Source: Pseudomonas sp. 31-12
GTDB lineage: Bacteria; Pseudomonadota; Gammaproteobacteria; Pseudomonadales; Pseudomonadaceae
NCBI RefSeq assembly: GCF_003151075.1
Contig: NZ_CP029482.1
Coordinates: forward strand, 2,604,001-2,668,000
Reading direction: 5' to 3'
Length of the DNA stretch: 64,000 nucleotides
Below the pieces are notes generated by a model, which saw only the letters and a list, made by a program, of their open reading frames with translations, did no database searches and was not told the origin of the DNA. The translations under genes and the position numbers were made by a program. This document shows positions 421-12,662 of the stretch, piece after piece; position 1 is the first letter of the stretch; every line of letters begins with the position of its first letter.

Positions 421-2163
421 ATGTTCGACAAAAACAATAAGCTGCGACATAGCATTTCATTGGCAGCCATGCTGGCACTCAGCGGTCTGAGCGCTTCGGC
501 CTGGGCCGATGCCTACGAAGACGCCGCGAAGAAATGGATCGGCAGCGAATTCAAACCGTCCACCCTCACGCCCGAGCAGCAGCTCGAAGAGCTGAAGTGG
601 TTCATCAAGGCCGCGGAGCCTTTTCGCGGGATGAGCATCAAGGTGGTTTCGGAAACCATCGCGACCCACGAATATGAATCCAAAACCCTGGCCAAGGCCT
701 TCACCGAAATCACCGGGATCAAGCTGACCCACGACTTGCTGCAGGAAGGCGACGTGGTGGAAAAGCTGCAAACCCAGATGCAGTCGGACAAAAACATCTA
801 TGACGGTTGGGTCAACGACTCGGACCTGATCGGTACGCACTTTCGCTACGGCAAGACCGAATCGATCACCGACCTGATGGCCAACGAAGGCAAGAACTTC
901 ACTTCGCCGACCCTGGACCTCAAGGACTTTATCGGCATTTCGTTCACCACTGCACCGGACGGCAAGATCTATCAATTGCCTGACCAACAGTTCGCCAACC
1001 TGTACTGGTTCCGCGCCGACTGGTTCGAACGGCCGGAGCTCAAAGCCAAGTTCAAGGAAAAGTACGGCTACGAATTGGGTGTGCCGGTGAACTGGTCGGC
1101 CTATGAAGACATCGCCAAGTTCTTCAGCGAAGACGTCAAGGAGATCGACGGCAAACGTGTCTACGGGCACATGGACTACGGCAAGAAAGACCCGTCTCTC
1201 GGCTGGCGCTTCACCGATGCCTGGTTCTCCATGGCCGGTGCCGGCGACAAAGGCATTCCCAATGGCTTGCCGGTGGACGAGTGGGGCATCCGCGTCGAGG
1301 ATTGCCACCCGGTCGGTTCCAGCGTGACCCGTGGCGGCGACACCAACGGCCCGGCGGCGGTCTATGCGACGCAGAAATACGTCGACTGGCTCAAGGCCTA
1401 CGCACCACCGGAAGCGGCAGGCATGACCTTCTCCGAATCCGGCCCGGTGCCGTCCCAAGGCAACATCGCCCAACAGATCTTCTGGTACACCGCGTTCACC
1501 GCCGACATGACCAAACCGGGCCTGCCGGTAATGAACGCCGACGGCACGCCGAAATGGCGGATGGCGCCATCTCCACGCGGACCGTATTGGGAGGAGGGCA
1601 TGAAGCTGGGGTATCAGGATGTGGGTTCCTGGACGTTCATGAAATCCACGCCTGAGAAGCAGAAACTGGCGGCCTGGCTCTATGCGCAATTCGTGACCTC
1701 GAAAACTGTGTCGCTGAAGAAAACCATCGTCGGCCTGACGCCGATTCGTGAGTCGGACATCAACTCGCAAGCCATGACCGACCTGGCACCGAAACTCGGC
1801 GGCCTGGTCGAGTTCTATCGCAGTCCGGCCCGCGTGCAATGGACCCCGACCGGGACCAACGTGCCGGACTATCCACGCTTGGCACAACTGTGGTGGAGCC
1901 ACATCGCGGAAGCGGCCAGTGGCGAGAAGACTCCGCAACAGGCGCTGGATGGCCTGGCCAAGGATCAGGACGCGATCATGGCGCGTCTGGAACGCTCGAA
2001 GGCGCAAGCCACCTGCGCACCGAAAATGAACCCGGAGCGCGATGCTCAATACTGGTTCGATCAGCCGGGTGCTCCGAAGCCGAAACTGGCGAACGAGAAG
2101 CCTAAAGGTGAAACCGTGAGCTATGCCGAACTGCTGAAATCGTGGGAGGCGGCGCGCAAGTAA
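421..2163 (+). CDS. Periplasmic solute-binding protein of a glycerol/carbohydrate ABC transporter
   Basis: A 580-residue protein with a Sec signal peptide (basic start, hydrophobic core SLAAMLALSGLSAS, cleavage near AWA-DAY around residue 30). It is large for a family 1 binding protein; the extra C-terminal part contains two cysteines that could pair. It should capture the substrate in the periplasm and deliver it to the permease encoded just upstream. A strong ribosome-binding site (AGGAGG) precedes the ATG. Order and size match GlpV of glycerol transporters, but substrate cannot be read from the sequence; sugar alcohols or other polyols remain possible. A hairpin terminator follows the stop. 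Confidence 0.85.
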   Translation: MFDKNNKLRHSISLAAMLALSGLSASAWADAYEDAAKKWIGSEFKPSTLTPEQQLEELKWFIKAAEPFRGMSIKVVSETIATHEYESKTLAKAFTEITGIKLTHDLLQEGDVVEKLQTQMQSDKNIYDGWVNDSDLIGTHFRYGKTESITDLMANEGKNFTSPTLDLKDFIGISFTTAPDGKIYQLPDQQFANLYWFRADWFERPELKAKFKEKYGYELGVPVNWSAYEDIAKFFSEDVKEIDGKRVYGHMDYGKKDPSLGWRFTDAWFSMAGAGDKGIPNGLPVDEWGIRVEDCHPVGSSVTRGGDTNGPAAVYATQKYVDWLKAYAPPEAAGMTFSESGPVPSQGNIAQQIFWYTAFTADMTKPGLPVMNADGTPKWRMAPSPRGPYWEEGMKLGYQDVGSWTFMKSTPEKQKLAAWLYAQFVTSKTVSLKKTIVGLTPIRESDINSQAMTDLAPKLGGLVEFYRSPARVQWTPTGTNVPDYPRLAQLWWSHIAEAASGEKTPQQALDGLAKDQDAIMARLERSKAQATCAPKMNPERDAQYWFDQPGAPKPKLANEKPKGETVSYAELLKSWEAARK

Positions 2164-2181: not shown

Positions 2182-2213
2182 GAACGGCACCTTCGGGTGC
2201 CGTTCTTGTTTAA
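2182..2213. terminator. Bidirectional intrinsic terminator
   Basis: A 10-bp GC-rich stem with a TTCG loop (GAACGGCACC-TTCG-GGTGCCGTTC) followed by TTGTTT. It sits between the convergent ends of the ABC transporter and the YcaO operon and can serve both. The same stem core recurs at 6468 and 9608. Confidence 0.85.
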
Positions 2214-3076
2214 CGCTCACTTTCACGTTTCAGCGACTGGCGCACGGCTTTCAGAATCGGGAGGTCGAAGGCATTGTGTCCGGCGAAGAGTAGCCGGCAC
2301 CGCAGCGGCTGGCGCTGCCGAAGCCACCGCACGCTGGACATGCCGAAGGTGTCTCTGATGCCTTGGATCACTTCAGTATGGGCATCAAGCGAAGGCGCTT
2401 CGTCCGTGCATGTGAAGAAGTACTGGTTTACGTGGTAATGCAATTCCAGGCGGATAGCGCGCACGGCTTCGTCGTCCACGAATTCTTCGAGTGCGCTCGG
2501 CTGCATCGATTGTCCGCTCAATTGCAAAGTCGCCCTTAACCAGTGGAGGGCCGCCTGACGCTGCTGGATTGCGCAGCCATTGTCCAGGAGTTGGTAGATC
2601 GCACCGGCACTGACGGCGCATGCCCCATGTGCCATGGCCGACAGGCCGTCATTCAAGGTTTGATCGTAGGCATTTACGTTGGCTGCAAACGGTACGAATA
2701 CTGAGACCAGTGTGGTTTTCAGAACGGCCTCTGGATAGCGTTGCTGGTATTGAATGGCCAGCCAGCTGCCCCATGAGACGCCGAGCATGCTGATTTTTTC
2801 GAACCCCAGATGCTGCCGCAGGGCGTCGATGTCTTCGACGCAAAGCCCGGTGTCGTTGTGTTGGCGTTCGCCGTGGGGAACGGAGCGGCCGCAGCCGCGC
2901 TGGTCGAACAGGATAATGTCGAAACAGCGTTCATCGAAGAACTCGAGATGACGGCTGTCGCTGCAACCCCCCGGTCCGCCATGCAGGAAAAATATCGGTT
3001 CGCCACCGGGTGTGCCGTGCCGCTCCCAATAGAGTTGGTGACCGTCGCCGGTCGAGTAGTAGCCACTGTTCACCAT
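2210..3076 (-). CDS. Proline iminopeptidase-like alpha/beta hydrolase, last gene of the YcaO operon
   Basis: A 288-residue alpha/beta-hydrolase of the prolyl aminopeptidase (S33) type. Visible are the oxyanion motif HGGPGG (32-37), DQRGCGRS (58-65), the nucleophile elbow GVSWGS with Ser101, a probable catalytic Asp242 in QGIRD and His267 in AGHNAF. The family is usually about 310-320 residues, so the cap region is short. It has no signal peptide, so it is cytoplasmic. Its ATG shares a base with the stop of the methyltransferase gene (TAATG), so translation is coupled. In the context of a peptide and a YcaO enzyme it may trim the N-terminus of a modified peptide or act as a non-hydrolytic alpha/beta protein (as BotH does in bottromycin biosynthesis). 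The function is inference. Confidence 0.8.
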   Translation of the reverse strand: MVNSGYYSTGDGHQLYWERHGTPGGEPIFFLHGGPGGCSDSRHLEFFDERCFDIILFDQRGCGRSVPHGERQHNDTGLCVEDIDALRQHLGFEKISMLGVSWGSWLAIQYQQRYPEAVLKTTLVSVFVPFAANVNAYDQTLNDGLSAMAHGACAVSAGAIYQLLDNGCAIQQRQAALHWLRATLQLSGQSMQPSALEEFVDDEAVRAIRLELHYHVNQYFFTCTDEAPSLDAHTEVIQGIRDTFGMSSVRWLRQRQPLRCRLLFAGHNAFDLPILKAVRQSLKRESER

Positions 3077-4020
3077 TAGGCGGGTGTCCTCAGCCTGTAG
3101 AATTGAAACAGTTCTGTGTGGCCGGGCCGGGCCGCTACGCTGGATATCAGTTCAAGCTTCAGCGCCTGCGCCATATAGGGCACGGCGATCAGTACCGGCG
3201 TATGGCCGAAAAGGAAAATCGTGCCACCCGGTTTAACGCCGGCTGCCATATCGAGGAGCGCTCGCTGCGCGTCCTTGCGCGTCATCACTTCGGCATTGAG
3301 GAAACGAATGATCAGCACATCGCATTGAATACCTGTTGTCGCGATGTGGTGGGCATCGGCCAGGTAGAACCGGGCGGCTGAAGTGCCATGATGCTTTTTG
3401 GCATAGTCAATCATCGACGCTGAGCGATCAGACCCCAGGCATTGGCGATCCGGGAGTTCGCCAGCGAGGTGCGCGATGAACTCGCCCGTCGAACACGCCG
3501 GGTCATGGATCACCGCGCCGGGTGATGACAGGTTTTTGAGCAGGCTTGTGCAATGCTGGCGAAAATGCCCTTCGTCAGCATCCAGCTGTGTGGCGAGCGA
3601 TTCATTGCATTGCCAATACTCGGGCGGGCAGACGCACTCTCGGCCGCTGTCATCCATGGCAGGAAACGGAAAACTCACTTCGCTGCCCGACTGCGTCAAT
3701 GCGTTATGGAACGCGGTTTCTTTCTCCTGCGCAGATACTGCACGGAAATAGATCACGGTGCCTTGATTGCCCCAATGCCATTGCACCAGCGGTCCGAGCA
3801 GCATCCAGGGTTGGAGCACGCTGCTGATGTGCCAGCCGACCGTCTCGCAGTATTGCAGGACTTTGCGGCCGACCCATTCGTTGCCGCCGACACGCAATAC
3901 AAACACATGATGCAGGCCTGAGCCGAAGGGTTCGATGAAACGATCGAGCTCGCCCGGCGATGCCTCGCGCCGGGGGAATGATTGAGCGAGGTGGTGTTCT
4001 CGACAAAGGGCAGGGGTCAT
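3076..4020 (-). CDS. Class I SAM-dependent methyltransferase with unassigned N-terminal half
   Basis: 314 residues. The C-terminal half is a Rossmann methyltransferase: SAM motif HDPACSTGEF (172-181), acidic second motif GSDRSASMIDYAKK (196-209), ADAHHI (221-226) and the late motif VKPGGTIFLFG (262-272). The first 160 residues match no family I recognise; they are rich in Trp and His, with several Cys. The start codon overlaps the YcaO stop in ATGA, so the two proteins are probably made in a fixed ratio. Likely to methylate a carboxylate, hydroxyl or amine of the product of the YcaO enzyme; the N-terminal part could bind the peptide. Target unknown. Confidence 0.8.
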   Translation of the reverse strand: MTPALCREHHLAQSFPRREASPGELDRFIEPFGSGLHHVFVLRVGGNEWVGRKVLQYCETVGWHISSVLQPWMLLGPLVQWHWGNQGTVIYFRAVSAQEKETAFHNALTQSGSEVSFPFPAMDDSGRECVCPPEYWQCNESLATQLDADEGHFRQHCTSLLKNLSSPGAVIHDPACSTGEFIAHLAGELPDRQCLGSDRSASMIDYAKKHHGTSAARFYLADAHHIATTGIQCDVLIIRFLNAEVMTRKDAQRALLDMAAGVKPGGTIFLFGHTPVLIAVPYMAQALKLELISSVAARPGHTELFQFYRLRTPA

Positions 4021-5252
4021 GCTGCTACTCCCTGATTCCTTTGCAGGCGCCGCCCTCGTGCCTGCGGTATCACCACATTGCCACTGGACACCACAAAAAA
4101 ACGCTCCAGCCCCGGAATGACGACGTTGACCAGCGTGGTCCCCAACGAGGTTTGATGGAGTTGGGTGACCCCCAGCGCGCGTCCATGCTGGTGGAGATCT
4201 TCTGCCAGCAAGTTGATTTGCTCGGCCAACGGGCGTTCATTGATTGTTTCGGGTAAGTCGACCGTGACTTGCTCGCACAAGGTAAGCAGTGGATACAGGT
4301 CGAATTGCAGGCAGCGGAGCAGGCGAGGAAATTTGCTCAAGTGCCGTTGCGCGTTACTCAGGTAGTGTTGCAGTCCTGGCTCCGAGGCCCCGTGATGGAG
4401 TTGGACGAGTTCGGTCAGCGCCCGCCAGGCGCCATGTCGGGCGCTGATCGAACTACCGCTGCCAAACACGCGAGGATGGGAGGCGGGTTCGGTTGAGAAC
4501 GCCAGAAAGGTGTGTGGCAGGAATTCAGTGCTGATGTCGATCAGGATGATTTCCGCTCCGATCTCCGCTTCGGCATCCGACCACAGTTGGCCCAATTGTT
4601 CGTGATCTGCCACGCGACCGACCCGGCGCAGCACAGGCCGGTTCTCGTAGTAAAAATGCTCCAGCAGAAACAACGAAACCGCATCGCGCTCGATGCATTC
4701 ATTTGCCGCATGCAAGACCGCTTCGTCGTAGCTCGCGCCAATGGCCGTTCCACTGTTAGAGGCATAGCGCCGTAATACGCCGTAGTTCGTAGAGTCTTGT
4801 TCCAGTGGCTGGCGTGAATAGTCGGGAGTGCATAATGCAACGGGGTAAGAGAATAAAGTTTTTTTGAATATGTCCGTGTAAGTTCTGCAGGCTGTCAAAG
4901 CATCGGGTTGGTCGGTGAGAGTAGAAAGAACCGTGTCATCGAAAAATAGTGGAGAGTCAGAAAAGTAATGCGGGGCAATACAGTGAATATCGCAGGCGCT
5001 GAAATGATCACTTAGATGGTGTTCCAGTGTTTCGTAAAGTGCACCCACCTGGGCGTGATGGAGGTAACCTTTTCCCGCTCCCCTGGCGATGCCCTGTTGA
5101 TTGCCAGCACTCGCCGAGACATGCACCGCGACAATTTTTTGCCCGAGTATGCGGGGTTCTGCGCGAAGCCCCAGGTTTTCCAGTTCGGCGTGAATCCTCT
5201 TTTCAGCCTGCGCAAGGGTGAGTTCTCGTTCTACACGTGTAAAGTTATCCAT
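4017..5252 (-). CDS. YcaO-domain enzyme (ATP-dependent peptide backbone modification)
   Basis: 411 residues from the ATG chosen because GGGAGGG lies 6 bases upstream; a longer frame would run into the small peptide gene. YcaO landmarks: GAGKG (58-62), ETLE (74-77), SNSGTAIGAS then EAVLHAANECIERDA (165-191), and ARHGAWRALTELVQ (271-284), which together carry the glutamates expected to bind Mg-ATP. YcaO enzymes activate peptide amides with ATP to form azolines, thioamides or amidines. The C-terminus ends in a basic tail and lacks the PxPxP ending of azoline cyclodehydratases. No E1-like/ocin-ThiF or TfuA partner is encoded nearby, so this is a stand-alone YcaO. The chemistry cannot be deduced from sequence alone. 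Confidence 0.9.
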   Translation of the reverse strand: MDNFTRVERELTLAQAEKRIHAELENLGLRAEPRILGQKIVAVHVSASAGNQQGIARGAGKGYLHHAQVGALYETLEHHLSDHFSACDIHCIAPHYFSDSPLFFDDTVLSTLTDQPDALTACRTYTDIFKKTLFSYPVALCTPDYSRQPLEQDSTNYGVLRRYASNSGTAIGASYDEAVLHAANECIERDAVSLFLLEHFYYENRPVLRRVGRVADHEQLGQLWSDAEAEIGAEIILIDISTEFLPHTFLAFSTEPASHPRVFGSGSSISARHGAWRALTELVQLHHGASEPGLQHYLSNAQRHLSKFPRLLRCLQFDLYPLLTLCEQVTVDLPETINERPLAEQINLLAEDLHQHGRALGVTQLHQTSLGTTLVNVVIPGLERFFVVSSGNVVIPQARGRRLQRNQGVAA

Positions 5253-5298
5253 CGTTCCCTCCCTTGAAAAAAACGGGGGGCATTTGCCCCCCGCTTTC

Positions 5299-5427
5299 TT
5301 AAACGGCTTCCAGTTCTGCTTGTTCATCCTCGGTCAGTTGCAGTTGTTCAATTTGCTCTGCTGTGGGGGTGTCCTGTTGTTCCAGGTCGATAACTTTGTT
5401 TGCGTTCCAGCTGACAAGGTAACCCAT
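5299..5427 (-). CDS. Putative RiPP precursor peptide (42 aa)
   Basis: A 42-codon gene starting at ATG with GAGAG about 8 bases upstream, 46 bases before the YcaO gene on the same strand. The peptide begins MGYLVSWNANKVIDLEQQ, and its second half is strongly acidic with repeated Glu/Gln (LTEDEQAELEAV at the end). It has no Cys, no double-glycine cleavage site and only a few Ser/Thr. The short hydrophobic-aromatic start after Met-Gly followed by an acidic amphipathic tail resembles the bottromycin precursor, where the core is N-terminal and a C-terminal follower guides the enzymes. Alternatively the whole peptide is a leader for a core I cannot recognise. Role as precursor is inferred from position, size and coupling to YcaO. 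Confidence 0.7.
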   Translation of the reverse strand: MGYLVSWNANKVIDLEQQDTPTAEQIEQLQLTEDEQAELEAV

Positions 5428-5482
5428 AGGTAAACTCTCTTTTTTGTTGGATAGTGGAGTGCTTAATCAAGCACGGAGCAAC

Positions 5483-5509
5483 TGTATAAGTTGAAAGTTG
5501 GTCGGTCAA
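5483..5509 (-). promoter_or_regulatory. Candidate sigma70 promoter of the peptide-YcaO operon
   Basis: On the minus strand TTGACC (-35, 5504-5509) and TATACA (-10, 5483-5488) are separated by 15 bases, slightly short of optimal. The predicted start lies about 50 bases before the peptide ATG. Just downstream the leader holds a 6-bp hairpin (GTGCTT-AATC-AAGCAC on the plus strand, 5459-5474) that could be an operator or RNA element. Prediction from sequence only. Confidence 0.4.
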
Positions 5510-7692: not shown

Positions 7693-8070
7693 TCATAGAT
7701 AACCCGTAACATTGATCCAGACAAGTATTAAAAAAAACCACAAGGCGCAAATTGTGTTGATGTGACCGGGAATGACCACCCAAGGGCGCAACGTTTTTGG
7801 AAAGATCTCTACCTCATCAATCGAGTCTGGATCCATATTGCGAAAGAATTTCAAGGTTAGTAGGGCATATATAATCTCCAGATTTCCTACTTTGAAGATG
7901 ATCGCAGTATTCTTGTCTCCTCGATGAGATGCGACGAAACGAGAGTTGGTGAAGTGGCTTTGAATCTCTTCTAGTTTGTGGGTTGCTACGTACGCTGAGA
8001 ATAAGTAGTTCACAAAAAACAATACGAAAAGTGGGACTCCGGATAAGCCAATTAATTGGTCAAAGGTCAT
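7693..8070 (-). CDS. Small membrane protein, putative immunity protein
   Basis: 125 residues with a hydrophobic N-terminus (LSGVPLFVLFFVNYLFSAYVA) and a C-terminal helix (INTICALWFFLILVWINV), and between them a polar region that would form a loop of about 70 residues. Its ATG overlaps the stop of the preceding toxin-like gene in ATGA. It is visibly more AT-rich than the neighbours, suggesting horizontal transfer. A small inner-membrane partner coupled to a protein with a hydrophobic C-terminal domain is the usual layout of pore-forming effector/immunity pairs. No named family recognised; the function is inferred from context. Confidence 0.6.
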   Translation of the reverse strand: MTFDQLIGLSGVPLFVLFFVNYLFSAYVATHKLEEIQSHFTNSRFVASHRGDKNTAIIFKVGNLEIIYALLTLKFFRNMDPDSIDEVEIFPKTLRPWVVIPGHINTICALWFFLILVWINVTGYL

Positions 8071-9407
8071 TGCTGGTTCACCTCGTACAGTTTTTCGCCG
8101 ATAAATTCTCCAGCTTGACCACCGCTATCTCCCATTTGTGCGGCAAGCATACCGCTCACAACTAACATGCACGCTAATCCTCCAGTACCAACTGTTCCCA
8201 CCCCAATCGCAGCACATGTCATTTGTGCAAAAACTGGCGCCAGTCGGCTAGCAATCATTCCGCCTGCAACGTTTCCAGATAGTTTCGAGCCCTCCACATA
8301 TTTTGCCTGACGACATTCCTCCTCGCGTCCGGTGCGACATGCCTCGTGAATCTTCATCGCCGCTGAACCAGCACCTAGACCAATCGCCACATAACCGCCC
8401 GCCTTTATGTATTTAGAGGCTCGCGCCACGCCTTCGATATGAGTTGCATAGCCCGGCAGTTGAGTCGGTACGCCAGCCTTGTTCCAGTTGTGCACGATTC
8501 TTCGCGTTGACAAACCTAGCGCCCGTTTAAGTTTCGGATGATCCGGAATACCCGTTGTCTTGCGAACCAAAGGCCCTAAATCGACATCCAGTTTCGTCAT
8601 CAGCCTTTTGCGTTTCGCAAAAAAATCCGGGGATTTCAGATGGCCATACTGGCGGTACTGCTCCATGTGTAACCGCTCCAGTTCTTTAAGTGTGTTTTTT
8701 AGCGTTTCCATATGCTGACCCACCATAAATGACGCTACACCCAACGCTCCGGAAGAAACTCCCAAAAACGGTTCAATCACTTCATGATGCTCAACCATGA
8801 ACGAAGCCTCTTCATCAGTCAGATCCTTCAGCGCTTCATTCACTTTTTCCGCAGCCGCCATCATCTGCGCCTCTTCGCGTCGGCACATGTAGTTGCGCGA
8901 GTCGCTAAAGATGACCATTTGCCCCGGTTTTACCTGTTCACCGAGATGGCGATTGAGCGAGCGGAACTCGCGGCGCAGCACATCGCTGGGTGTAACTTCG
9001 TACAGCGAGCGTTCCTGCGCTTCGAGGGTCATGGGTGTCTGGACGATGTGGAAGCCGGACTCTGCCGGTTTGGGCAGAGTGAAGGCGTGTTCTTCTACCA
9101 GATGGTGTGCGGGTGCTGGCTCGGGTTTGGGTTTGAAGGCGTTCCAGGAGGCACCGCCGCTATCACCAGTAACGCGCGGTTTCACCAGTGCCCAGTCACC
9201 GTTACTGACGGCATCGATGAGTTTTCGTTGGTTGACACCCTGCAGGTAATTGGAGCGATGGAGGCCTACCGCGTTTAGCAGATCGTCGAAGCCGGGCAGA
9301 TCGTCGGGGCGATTCAGAGACTGGCGGAACTCTTCCATGGCTTGGTAAGGGTCGAGTAGTTGGCTACGTTGGCCATTGAGTTCGCTTTTGGGGATGAGTC
9401 TAGTCAC
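8067..9407 (-). CDS. Putative antibacterial effector with LysM-like region and glycine-rich membrane-active C-terminus
   Basis: 446 residues from a GTG with GGGAC upstream. Residues about 119-167 resemble a divergent LysM domain (FHIVQTPMTLEA...LNRHLGEQVKPGQMVIF). Residues 170-290 are helical and charged. The C-terminal third carries two glycine/alanine-rich hydrophobic segments (about 336-350 and 393-424; GVGTVGTGGLACMLVVSGML) that could insert in membranes, with four cysteines between about 357 and 413. No signal peptide, PAAR, VgrG or Rhs part is present, so it would be an orphan cargo effector of a secretion system (type VI most likely). The coupled small membrane gene would protect the producer. 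Toxicity is inference. Confidence 0.55.
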   Translation of the reverse strand: MTRLIPKSELNGQRSQLLDPYQAMEEFRQSLNRPDDLPGFDDLLNAVGLHRSNYLQGVNQRKLIDAVSNGDWALVKPRVTGDSGGASWNAFKPKPEPAPAHHLVEEHAFTLPKPAESGFHIVQTPMTLEAQERSLYEVTPSDVLRREFRSLNRHLGEQVKPGQMVIFSDSRNYMCRREEAQMMAAAEKVNEALKDLTDEEASFMVEHHEVIEPFLGVSSGALGVASFMVGQHMETLKNTLKELERLHMEQYRQYGHLKSPDFFAKRKRLMTKLDVDLGPLVRKTTGIPDHPKLKRALGLSTRRIVHNWNKAGVPTQLPGYATHIEGVARASKYIKAGGYVAIGLGAGSAAMKIHEACRTGREEECRQAKYVEGSKLSGNVAGGMIASRLAPVFAQMTCAAIGVGTVGTGGLACMLVVSGMLAAQMGDSGGQAGEFIGEKLYEVNQQ

Positions 9408-9658: not shown

Positions 9659-11122
9659 TCAGCCCGCCAGACCCGACTGCTGAACCAGCGTCAGCAGCGG
9701 TTGTGGGTAGACGCCGAGGAAGAATGCCACCAGAGCGATGGCCAGCAGCATCACGCCGCCTGCACGTTGTTCCCAGTGCAGTTGCGCATCGTGGCGACGC
9801 AGGTTCGGCTCGATCAGGTACAAAGTGACCATGACGCGCAGGTAGTAGAAGACGCCGATGGCGCTGCCCAGTACCAGGGAACCGACCAGCCACCATTGGT
9901 GCGACTCGACACCGGTGGCGATGATGTAGAACTTGCCGATGAAGCCCGCGGTGAGCGGGATACCGGCCAGGGACAGCATCATCACGGTCAGGACGGCGGT
10001 CAGGTACGGACGACGCCAGAACAGGCCGCGGTATTCGTACAGGGCATCCGCGTCACGGCCGTTGTACGGCGAGGACATCAGCGTGATCACACCGAACGCG
10101 CCGAGGCTGGTGATCACGTAGGTGACCAGGTACACGCCGATGGCTTCCACGGCCAGACCCTTGCTCGCCACCAGGGCGATCAGCAGGTAGCCGAAGTGAG
10201 CGATGGACGAGTAACCCAGCAGACGCTTGAGGTTGCTCTGGGTCAGTGCCAGCAGGTTACCGAACAGGATCGACGCAATGGCGATGATGGTCAGCACGTC
10301 GCTCAGCACACCGCTGCTTGCTGCAGGCGAGATCTGGAACAGACGCACCATCACGGCAAACACGGCCACTTTCGAAGCAGTGGCCAGGAACGCCGCCACC
10401 GGTGCCGGAGCACCTTCGTAAACGTCCGGGGTCCAGAGGTGGAACGGTACCAGCGACAGTTTGAACGCCAGACCGATCAGCATCATGCCCAGGCCCAGTT
10501 GCGCCAGCGAGCTCGGCAAGCCGGTGGCGGCCAGCGCTTGGCCGATACCGACAAAGCTCAGGCTGCCGGAGTCGGCGTAGAGCAGGGCCATCCCGAACAG
10601 CAGGAACGCGGAACCGGCAGCCGACAGCACCATGTACTTGATACCGGCTTCCAGCGAACGCTTGTTGAAGAAGGCATAAGCCACCAGACCGTAGACCGGT
10701 ACCGAGAGCAGTTCCAGACCGATGAACAACCCGGCCAGGTGCTGCGCGCTGACCAGCACCAAGCCACCGGCGGCGGCCATCAGGATCAGCAGGTAAAGTT
10801 CTTCACGGTTGCCCGGGTAACCCGAACCGCCATCGCCGAGGTAGGCGTGGGCGAGGGTGACACAGGCGAGGGTGGCGACCAGGATCAGCGCCATGTACAA
10901 GCAGGCGAAGGTGTCGATCTGCAGCAACGGAGTCACGGCCAGAGGCGCGACTTTCAGGGCTGGCAGGATCGACAGCAACGCCAGGTTCAGACCTGCCACG
11001 GAAATCAGGAAGGTCTGCGAGTGGTTGCGGCGCCAGGCAATCGCCAGCATCACCACGATGATCGTGGCGCTGGTGATCAACAACGGCGCAAGCGCGATAA
11101 AGTGTTGAGTCGTGAATTCCAT
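9659..11122 (-). CDS. nuoN: NADH-quinone oxidoreductase subunit N
   Basis: 487-residue polytopic inner-membrane protein, one of three antiporter-like proton-pumping subunits of complex I. Conserved features include [25 protein letters not shown] and the broken-helix region [18 protein letters not shown], with the lysines and glutamate used for proton translocation. The start at MEFTTQHF is preferred over an in-frame codon 63 bases upstream that would run into nuoM. It is the last gene of the operon and is followed by a terminator. Confidence 0.97.
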
Positions 11123-11129
11123 AGCGCTC

Positions 11130-12662
11130 TTACCGGGCCGAAGCGAGTTGAGTGAAGGCGGTGCCGAGCCACTGCTGCACGCCATGCATCGTCGCGGCAG
11201 AGGTGTCGAGGAACGGTTGCGGGTACACGCCGATGTAAATCAGCAATGCCGCCAGACCGACCACCATGATCAGTTCGCGACCATCCATGCCATGCAACAC
11301 CGCGTCCGACTTGGACGGGCCGAAGTAGGCACGGTGGATCATGATCAGCGAGTAGACCGAACCGAACACCAGACCGGACGTCGCGATGATGGTGATCCAT
11401 GGGGCGGCCGGGAACGTGCCGATCAGAATCAGGAACTCACCGACGAAGTTACCGGTGCCCGGCAAGCCCAGGGACGCGGCGGCAAAGAACAGGCTGATGG
11501 CCGGCAGGTAAGCGATCTTCGACCACAGGCCACCCATTTCACGCATGTCGCGGGTGTGGGTGCGCTCGTACAGCTGACCGCTGAGGATAAAGAGTGCCGC
11601 GGCCGACAGACCGTGCGCCAGCATCTGCATCACTGCACCCTGCAGCGCCAGTTGGCTGCCGGAGTAGATGCCGATCAACACGAAACCCATGTGGGAAACG
11701 GAGGAGTAGGCGATCAGACGCTTGATGTCGGTTTGTGCAAAGGCCAGGAACGCACCGTAGAAGATCCCGATCAGACCCAGGGTCATGGCGATCGGCGCAA
11801 ACTCGGCCGAGGCATTCGGGAACAGCGGCAGGGCGAAACGCAGGAGGCCGTAAGCCGCCGTCTTCAACAAGATACCGGCCAGGTCGACCGAACCCGCTGT
11901 TGGCGCCTGGGCGTGAGCATCAGGCAGCCAGGAGTGGAACGGTACGACTGGCAGCTTCACCGCGAAGGCGATGAAGAAGCCGAGCATCAGGATGTACTCG
12001 GTAGTGAGCGACATCTTGGTTTTCAGCAGATCGGCGTAGTTGAACGTGATCACGCCGGTGCTGTTGAAGTTGACCAGCACCAGGCCCAGGATCGCCACCA
12101 ACATGATCAGGCCGGACGCCTGAGTGAAGATGAAGAACTTGGTCGCCGCGTAGATCCGGGTTTTCTTGCCGTCCGAAGAACTGTGACCCCAGAGCGCGAT
12201 GAGGAAGTACATCGGCACCAGCATCATTTCCCAGAAGAAGAAGAACATGAACAGGTCGAGGGCGAGGAACACGCCGACGACACCGCCCAGGATCCACATC
12301 AGGTTCAAGTGGAAGAAGCCAACGTGACGCTGGATCTCTTTCCACGAGCAGAGTACCGAGAGGATACCCAGCAGACCGGTCAACAGGATCATCAACAGCG
12401 ACAGGCCGTCGAGGGCCAGGTGCACGCTGATGCCGAAGCGCTCGATCCAGATGTGCTTGAACTCAAGCGCCCAGGTCGGATCGGCGCCAGGCGCCGGAGC
12501 AAATGAATAATCACCGTGGGCCCACAGCCAGAGGCCGAGCGCGAGTTCCAGGGTCATGGTCAACAGCGCAATCCAGCGGGGGAGGGTAGCGCCGAAGCGC
12601 TCACCCATCCAGCACAGCAGGCCGCCGATGAAGGGGATCAGGATTAGCCAAGGCAGAATCAT
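11130..12662 (-). CDS. nuoM: NADH-quinone oxidoreductase subunit M
   Basis: 510-residue antiporter-like membrane subunit of complex I. It has about 14 hydrophobic segments and the family motifs [16 protein letters not shown] (with the essential Glu) and [20 protein letters not shown] in the discontinuous helix. Length matches the E. coli subunit (509). Separated from nuoN by 7 bases and from nuoL by 39. Confidence 0.97.

Follow-up and report, generated by a model that had tools for sequence, protein, structure and literature searches.

A compact four-gene operon on the minus strand of the Pseudomonas sp. 31-12 chromosome very probably encodes the biosynthesis of a ribosomally synthesized and post-translationally modified peptide (RiPP). 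With less confidence, we incline to a more specific reading, in which the modified core sits at the N-terminus of a 42-residue precursor and receives a 3-amino-3-carboxypropyl group from S-adenosylmethionine (SAM), the product of the accompanying YcaO enzyme being left open. The operon lies in a window of 64,000 nucleotides (contig NZ_CP029482.1, positions 2,604,001 to 2,668,000) and has the following parts, numbered from the first letter of the window; other loci and genomes carry our survey numbers (L and G).

5299..5427, minus strand: precursor peptide gene, 42 amino acids, MGYLVSWNANKVIDLEQQDTPTAEQIEQLQLTEDEQAELEAV; kept beside YcaO, with a dN/dS of 0.17 and database relatives.
5386..5424, minus strand: proposed N-terminal core, codons 2-14, GYLVSWNANKVID; Gly2, Tyr3 and NAN are conserved in alignment A3.
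5302..5346, minus strand: proposed C-terminal follower, codons 28-42, QLQLTEDEQAELEAV; delimited from alignment A3, with a putative role in recognition.
5274..5293, minus strand: GC-rich hairpin in the gap that separates the peptide gene from YcaO, followed on this strand by a T-run; from a scan of the window and the folding of 26 loci.
4017..5252, minus strand: stand-alone YcaO, 411 amino acids; PF02624 and residues conserved in alignment A1 (26 sequences).
3076..4020, minus strand: NAT-like SAM enzyme, 314 amino acids; a probable 3-amino-3-carboxypropyl transferase by its similarity to NAT.
2210..3076, minus strand: prolyl-aminopeptidase-type serine hydrolase, 288 amino acids; TIGR01249, Ser-Asp-His and fold.

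The four open reading frames (ORFs) are set close together, with a 46-base gap between the peptide gene and YcaO and then overlaps of 4 and 1 bases, an arrangement described in an earlier note on this DNA and in agreement with the ORF listing. The YcaO frame is open upstream to 5327, and its likely start is the ATG at 5252, preceded by GGGAGGG. Pfam recognises the YcaO (PF02624, E 4.6e-27), the SAM enzyme (Methyltransf_25, 1.4e-11) and the hydrolase (Abhydrolase_1, 2.7e-18); for the peptide there is no significant Pfam match and no NCBIfam model at E<=1. The earlier note took this set for a RiPP-like operon and proposed a search of other Pseudomonas genomes, with an alignment of the peptides, for a small peptide gene conserved beside homologous YcaO genes. 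The search did not refute that reading, one decayed locus (L060) aside. YcaO relatives at E<=1e-5 occur in 51 of the 398 genomes of the genus, and 22 loci, the window's counted, form a clear orthologous set (at least 42% identity); the remaining long matches reach at most 34%, and one 80-residue match (G109) reaches 47%. The peptide gene stands beside YcaO in 18 of the 22 by tblastn and in three more (L058, L059, L061) by ORF inspection. The SAM enzyme is found by tblastn in 21 of the 22. It is absent from L060, which has just a degenerate 25-residue peptide ORF and which we regard as a decayed locus. With a dN/dS of 0.17 over 17 rows (two of them, L047 and L067, the same contig), the peptide gene evolves, by this sequence measure, as a coding gene, and a protein database search at E<=0.001 gives 64 relatives of the peptide.

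Both ends of the precursor are conserved. In alignment A3 (25 peptides), the sequence begins MGY...NAN and ends LQLTxxExAELxAE around a variable middle; NAN is strongly conserved in the close clade, and the C-terminal block is missing from the Mycobacterium peptide. Since this block ends at the stop codon, there is no core after it. On this alignment the probable arrangement is that of bottromycin, a core at the N-terminus with the acidic C-terminal block serving as follower. Of 37 distinct peptides drawn from all YcaO groups, 36 carry Gly2, the exception being L060; the set is hand-picked and its members are related by descent, so that its counts are not independent. Two groups of more distant YcaO loci each encode MG peptides of a different type: MGKYCCMYINEF and similar in group B (L029, L037, L062), and MG[SKR][KR]R[ST]EI in group C (L032, L034, L038-L041), in which an ABC transporter gene follows YcaO in all four Pfam-scanned loci (L038-L041).

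The SAM enzyme resembles the isonocardicin synthase NAT over nearly its full length, in sequence as well as in predicted fold. NAT is by far its nearest solved relative, with about 26% identity in the structural alignment (PDB 8zhu/8zhv), and the SAM motif (D..CSTG) reads DPACSTG in 25 of 25 loci and DAACSTG in NAT. By full-length sequence, fold and motif the enzyme groups with the isonocardicin synthase family and, by analogy, quite probably transfers 3-amino-3-carboxypropyl rather than methyl. The earlier name of methyltransferase stands as a label for the fold and probably fails as a name for the reaction, NAT being the nearest solved relative. NAT acts on nocardicin G, a beta-lactam whose pathway is non-ribosomal, whereas the gene described here neighbours those for a peptide and a YcaO. 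Among the hand-picked peptides, Tyr3 occurs in 26 of the 27 found beside NAT-like genes, against 1 of the 10 others, and on this pattern Tyr3 is a reasonably likely acceptor of the transferred group.

The same association reaches beyond Pseudomonas. When named genome contigs were scanned with the NAT alignment, 39 loci were obtained, 29 of which also contain a YcaO: 26 from Pseudomonas (several of the 29 are genomes of the 22-locus set), two from Paraburkholderia and one from Mycobacterium. An MG peptide accompanies every one of the 29: tblastn found 20, ORF inspection 7, and the two of the P. lundensis loci come from the genus survey. Mycobacterium montefiorense combines the peptide MGYLAVFNAADVDD... 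with a YcaO (33%), a prolyl-aminopeptidase-type hydrolase, a NAT-like enzyme and an MFS transporter. The two Paraburkholderia loci have peptides MGYVMCMYTSDY... and MGYLICMYSNDY..., a group-B-like YcaO and a NAT; searched against 369 genomes of the class, a Paraburkholderia YcaO finds at E<=1e-20 the window's own genome only. A search of plasmids with the NAT-like enzyme alone returned two Pantoea records and one Acinetobacter record (25.8%). In the Pantoea eucrina region a 43-residue hypothetical protein, a YcaO and a 'methyltransferase' follow one another, and the peptide, MGYLNSGISNSNSENANKAV..., begins MGY; its Tyr3 had been predicted before the locus was found, and the prediction held. 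The YcaO proteins of CP010326.1, NZ_CP083450.1 and CP060162.1 (two Pantoea plasmids and an 'Acinetobacter venetianus' plasmid record) are 100% identical, through recent transfer or a mislabelled record, and count as one.

Several observations weigh against aminocarboxypropyl transfer to Tyr3 by a pathway of NAT-like enzyme and YcaO. A common fold and sequence are no proof of this reaction, and the enzyme could be a true methyltransferase, for example one that O-methylates Tyr, with only ancestry in common with NAT. This would suit its Pfam methyltransferase domains, the second protein found by Foldseek (the tyrosine O-methyltransferase MfnG, 7ux8, TM-score 0.48) and the naming of its relatives, most of which are called 'methyltransferase', with 'isonocardicin synthase' on 9 of 120 among the matches listed; we consider it improbable beside the full-length kinship with NAT. 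The link between Tyr and NAT is also unclean: L085 has its Tyr at position 4, as do two of the three group B peptides, which come without NAT, and the Tyr3 counts are drawn from peptides that share descent in a hand-picked set. YcaO and NAT distances correlate closely (r 0.96 over 25 loci, 0 of 2000 permutations) and their trees have most clades in common, L055 and L088 being unsure, but plain vertical descent inside Pseudomonas would give that correlation too. Finally, tblastn finds no YcaO in 10 of the 39 NAT loci, several of which are on short contigs.

What, then, does the YcaO make? Glu74, Glu77, Glu177, Arg189 and Gln284 are invariant in alignment A1 and form what we take to be the known ATP/Mg site. 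The genome's one other YcaO is a long protein encoded elsewhere, presumably of the E. coli type, as its higher Pfam score also suggests. By profile, the closest solved YcaO is MJ1094, which we assume to be linked to McrA, and a model for McrA thioamidation matches the window's enzyme at E 4.3e-13, with 49 bits against a cut-off of 365. The C-terminus reads VVIPQARGR and lacks the PxPxP that is tied to azoline enzymes (described in PMC12338566). The earlier note's statement that E1-like or ocin-ThiF, TfuA and dehydrogenase partners are absent agrees with the Pfam scan, which found no such domain among seven proteins (four of the operon, three flanking), and TfuA (PF07812) was not found in the whole genome.

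Our first choice is an N-terminal amidine, to which we give slightly less than an even chance. We favour it because the Gly2 amine, after loss of Met1, is the nucleophile that nearly all the peptides share, and because bottromycin and streptamidine carry amidines on N-terminal amines. Second, and unlikely, comes a scheme in which YcaO closes a pyrimidone-like ring at the conserved NAN asparagine, the alpha/beta hydrolase cuts off the follower and the NAT-like step is additional. An Asn does lie in residues 2-14 of 25 of the 27 NAT-positive peptides, NAN is the conserved motif of the close clade, the operon encodes a hydrolase, and SpyE is described as removing C-terminal peptides to give peptide-nucleobase hybrids (PMC13174530). 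However, two of the 27 (L082a and L092) have no Asn in residues 2-14, and 6 of the 22 loci lack an intact hydrolase gene. The dehydrogenase reportedly needed in the spyrimidone pathway is not among the operon genes either. Third, and more doubtful still, would be backbone thioamidation without TfuA, again with a NAT-like step. Besides MJ1094 and the McrA model, this could draw on the E. coli-type YcaO, which thioamidates uL16 according to PMC13063428, and on a pyridoxal phosphate (PLP) enzyme of the group B loci L037 and L062 that could release sulfide. On the other side, the model score is far under its cut-off, the PLP gene lies outside the window's operon, where no sulfur gene was seen, and TfuA is missing genome-wide, though not every thioamide YcaO needs it. 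Least likely of all is an azoline-type RiPP with cyclised core Ser, Thr or Cys: the window's core has Ser6, and group B and Paraburkholderia cores have Cys, but azolines cannot be the general product because 6 of the 27 NAT-positive cores have none of these residues (positions 2-14), and the enzyme lacks the PxPxP ending and the operon an E1 or ocin-ThiF gene.

The earlier note could not match the set to known clusters for azoles, thioamides, lanthipeptides or thiopeptides, which agrees with these results, but it overlooked the RiPPs made with a follower peptide and a stand-alone YcaO (bottromycin, streptamidine, spyrimidone), and it is these that the operon most resembles. Spyrimidone is said to be built, in the work of Pei et al. 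of 2025, by an RRE-YcaO-dehydrogenase complex that makes an Asn pyrimidone. Papers citing that work describe a YcaO and a C-terminal follower removed by a hydrolase, as may be the case here; neither a dehydrogenase nor an RRE gene was seen in the window's operon. Bottromycin (Streptomyces scabies btm) is described in PMC5103208 with an N-terminal core starting at the Gly after Met, a C-terminal follower, stand-alone YcaOs, an amidine formed from the Gly amine, and cluster genes for a hydrolase and an O-methyltransferase. The MG peptide, with its proposed core and follower, would fit this plan. The bottromycin cluster, as described, has two YcaOs, an amidohydrolase, radical SAM methyltransferases, a P450 and an M17 peptidase; the four-gene operon has one YcaO, the NAT-like enzyme and the prolyl-aminopeptidase-type hydrolase, and contains no second YcaO, amidohydrolase, radical SAM methyltransferase or P450. 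The missing amidohydrolase speaks against a bottromycin-like amidine, as macrocyclisation there is described as needing, or being helped by, the amidohydrolase BtmI (PMC5103208). Streptamidine (ami) offers a stand-alone YcaO, a hydrolase, a core that requires no Ser/Thr/Cys ring and an N-terminal-amine amidine. It differs in having its core mid-precursor, iron-transporter and ABC genes and, in many clusters, a flavin dehydrogenase, and the accessible text mentions no NAT-like enzyme (PMC8442711). No description of this operon, or of an aminocarboxypropyl RiPP, was found in the literature, which is weak evidence of novelty, subscription journals lying mostly outside the search; in the accessible part of a paper on the Pseudomonas pan-genome, microcin-B17-like and YcaO-TfuA clusters are the only ones named (PMC8719888).

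Returning to the amidine, we envision the following pathway, whose order of steps is tentative. The 42-residue peptide would be made, possibly in excess over the enzymes owing to the hairpin after its gene, and host methionine aminopeptidase would take off Met1 to expose Gly2. Steered by the acidic C-terminal block, YcaO would use ATP to activate a backbone amide near the N-terminus, which the Gly amine would most likely attack to give an N-terminal or macrocyclic amidine (-18.01 Da). From SAM, the NAT-like enzyme would then move a 3-amino-3-carboxypropyl group onto the Tyr3 phenol oxygen (+101.05 Da), and trimming or release of the product would fall to the hydrolase, or to host peptidases in loci that lack it.

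The hairpin is a shared feature of these loci. The gap between peptide gene and YcaO, measured up to the tblastn start of YcaO, folds with z < -2 in 24 of 26 loci, some of them near-identical; the exceptions are L044 (z -1.7, stem still clear) and L060 (-0.3), and hairpin sequences are unlike between groups. A terminator-like T-run follows it in only 8 of 25 loci scanned, which counts against termination at this site, and because of this we give equal odds to an attenuator and to an element that stabilises the 3' end of the peptide message. In both cases expression would be tilted towards the precursor and away from the enzymes. In L045 and L048 the gap is widened to 145 and 154 bases by GC-rich inserts that look by eye like repetitive extragenic palindromic (REP) elements. 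The earlier note's statement that the four genes run from one candidate promoter to one terminator is not supported: the terminator-like hairpin sits within the operon, the hairpin at 2182-2205 beyond its end is terminator-like on the plus strand only, and the sole promoter-like site is at chance level (1 found, 1.5 expected):

5481..5509, minus strand: weak promoter-like site upstream of the peptide gene, read from 5509 to 5481; not above chance.

The hydrolase is, by sequence and predicted alpha/beta hydrolase fold, a divergent prolyl-aminopeptidase-type enzyme. Ser101, Asp242 and His267 are present in 17 of 17 sequences, and its TIGR01249 score of 149.3 bits is under the equivalog cut-off of 259.75, which sets it apart from the prolyl aminopeptidases of known structure (1qtr, 1wm1, 1azw, 5yhp). 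The fold matches name no bottromycin enzyme, which proves nothing. The gene is full-length in 16 of the 22 loci, a fragment in L057 and not found in L036, L043, L059 (where the locus adjoins a contig end), L060 and L061; we rejected it as an essential step on this count, and it may have an accessory or an immunity role. In two Pseudomonas genomes, G029 and G016, the hydrolase gene stands alone (L140 5261-6109, L141 5564-6412) beside the gene for a solute-binding protein (SBP), and no match to the peptide, NAT or YcaO was found at these sites.

Related genes occur in other settings. In group B, L037 (6129-7379, by Pfam) and L062 (by tblastn) have a Cys/Met-metabolism gene of the cystathionine-synthase type (PF01053, the PLP enzyme above) and no NAT; group B peptides contain CC, and such enzymes can in principle add aminocarboxypropyl to a thiol. 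Pseudomonas weihenstephanensis L082 has two MGY peptide genes (6777, 8213), one before NAT and one before YcaO. In the metagenome-assembled genomes of L094, L095 and L097 a NAT-like gene adjoins genes for a peptide-maturase-like radical SAM/SPASM protein and for a ribosome-protection GTPase like Tet(M) (by model search in L094, by eye in the others), which looks like another RiPP-type cluster with NAT. At L101 (859-4404, a metagenome-assembled Legionellaceae genome) the neighbours of the NAT-like gene are PqqD-like and lasso-peptide cyclase-like genes, the latter scoring 414.7 bits with NF033535 (cut-off 525), and a NAT-tailored lasso peptide is possible.

The operon is flanked by a conserved gene:

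421-2163, plus strand: solute-binding protein gene (SBP), PF13416.

Sixteen other loci keep this gene, with a protein 93-98% identical to that of the window and a YcaO 50-76% identical, which argues that the operon is fast-evolving or exchanged. G005 has an SBP 99% identical and no operon at that site. We rejected a mobile cassette, as the locus lies near nuoN in several lineages and vertical inheritance with loss fits equally: nuoN (labelled by eye) is at 9659-11185 of the window, and in the lundensis and entomophila groups the genes are likewise near nuoN, together with a TonB receptor. That receptor stands beside the RiPP genes in 8 distinct loci (L058, L059, L060, L061, L082, L085, L086, L090), in two gene orders (L058 4643-6880, L061 5503-7602). 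Its homologues were present in 15 of the 28 genomes examined, and some of these (G001, G002, G004) have no such YcaO; none was found in the window's genome at E<=1e-60; an obligate partnership was therefore rejected, and the receptor remains a hint. Neither nuoN nor a TrhP-like gene was found within 11-13.5 kb in five genomes with the receptor elsewhere. The receptors score 84.5 and 86.7 bits against PqqU, far under its cut-off of 1200, a weak similarity to the pyrroloquinoline quinone receptor. Further along the window (7693-9407, minus strand), a 446-residue ORF and then a 125-residue ORF resemble a toxin-immunity pair by look only, with no Pfam match above cut-off.

More speculatively, and only as a tentative proposal, these loci may define a new RiPP class of Pseudomonas, Paraburkholderia, Pantoea plasmids and a Mycobacterium, in which the N-terminal Gly-Tyr of a peptide guided by its follower would become an amidine with O-(3-amino-3-carboxypropyl)-tyrosine. 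The small, amino-acid-like product would perhaps bind metal and, in part of Pseudomonas, be taken up through the neighbouring TonB receptor. In group B, which has no NAT, Cys may receive this group from the PLP enzyme instead. The operon is tiny, a peptide and three enzymes, and as a stand-alone YcaO family in which some cores have no Ser, Thr or Cys it bears on what such enzymes do. If the proposed transfer is true, RiPP chemistry would gain a second use of SAM, the transfer of its aminocarboxypropyl arm, and with it a genetically encoded route to an amino-acid head group on a peptide tyrosine.

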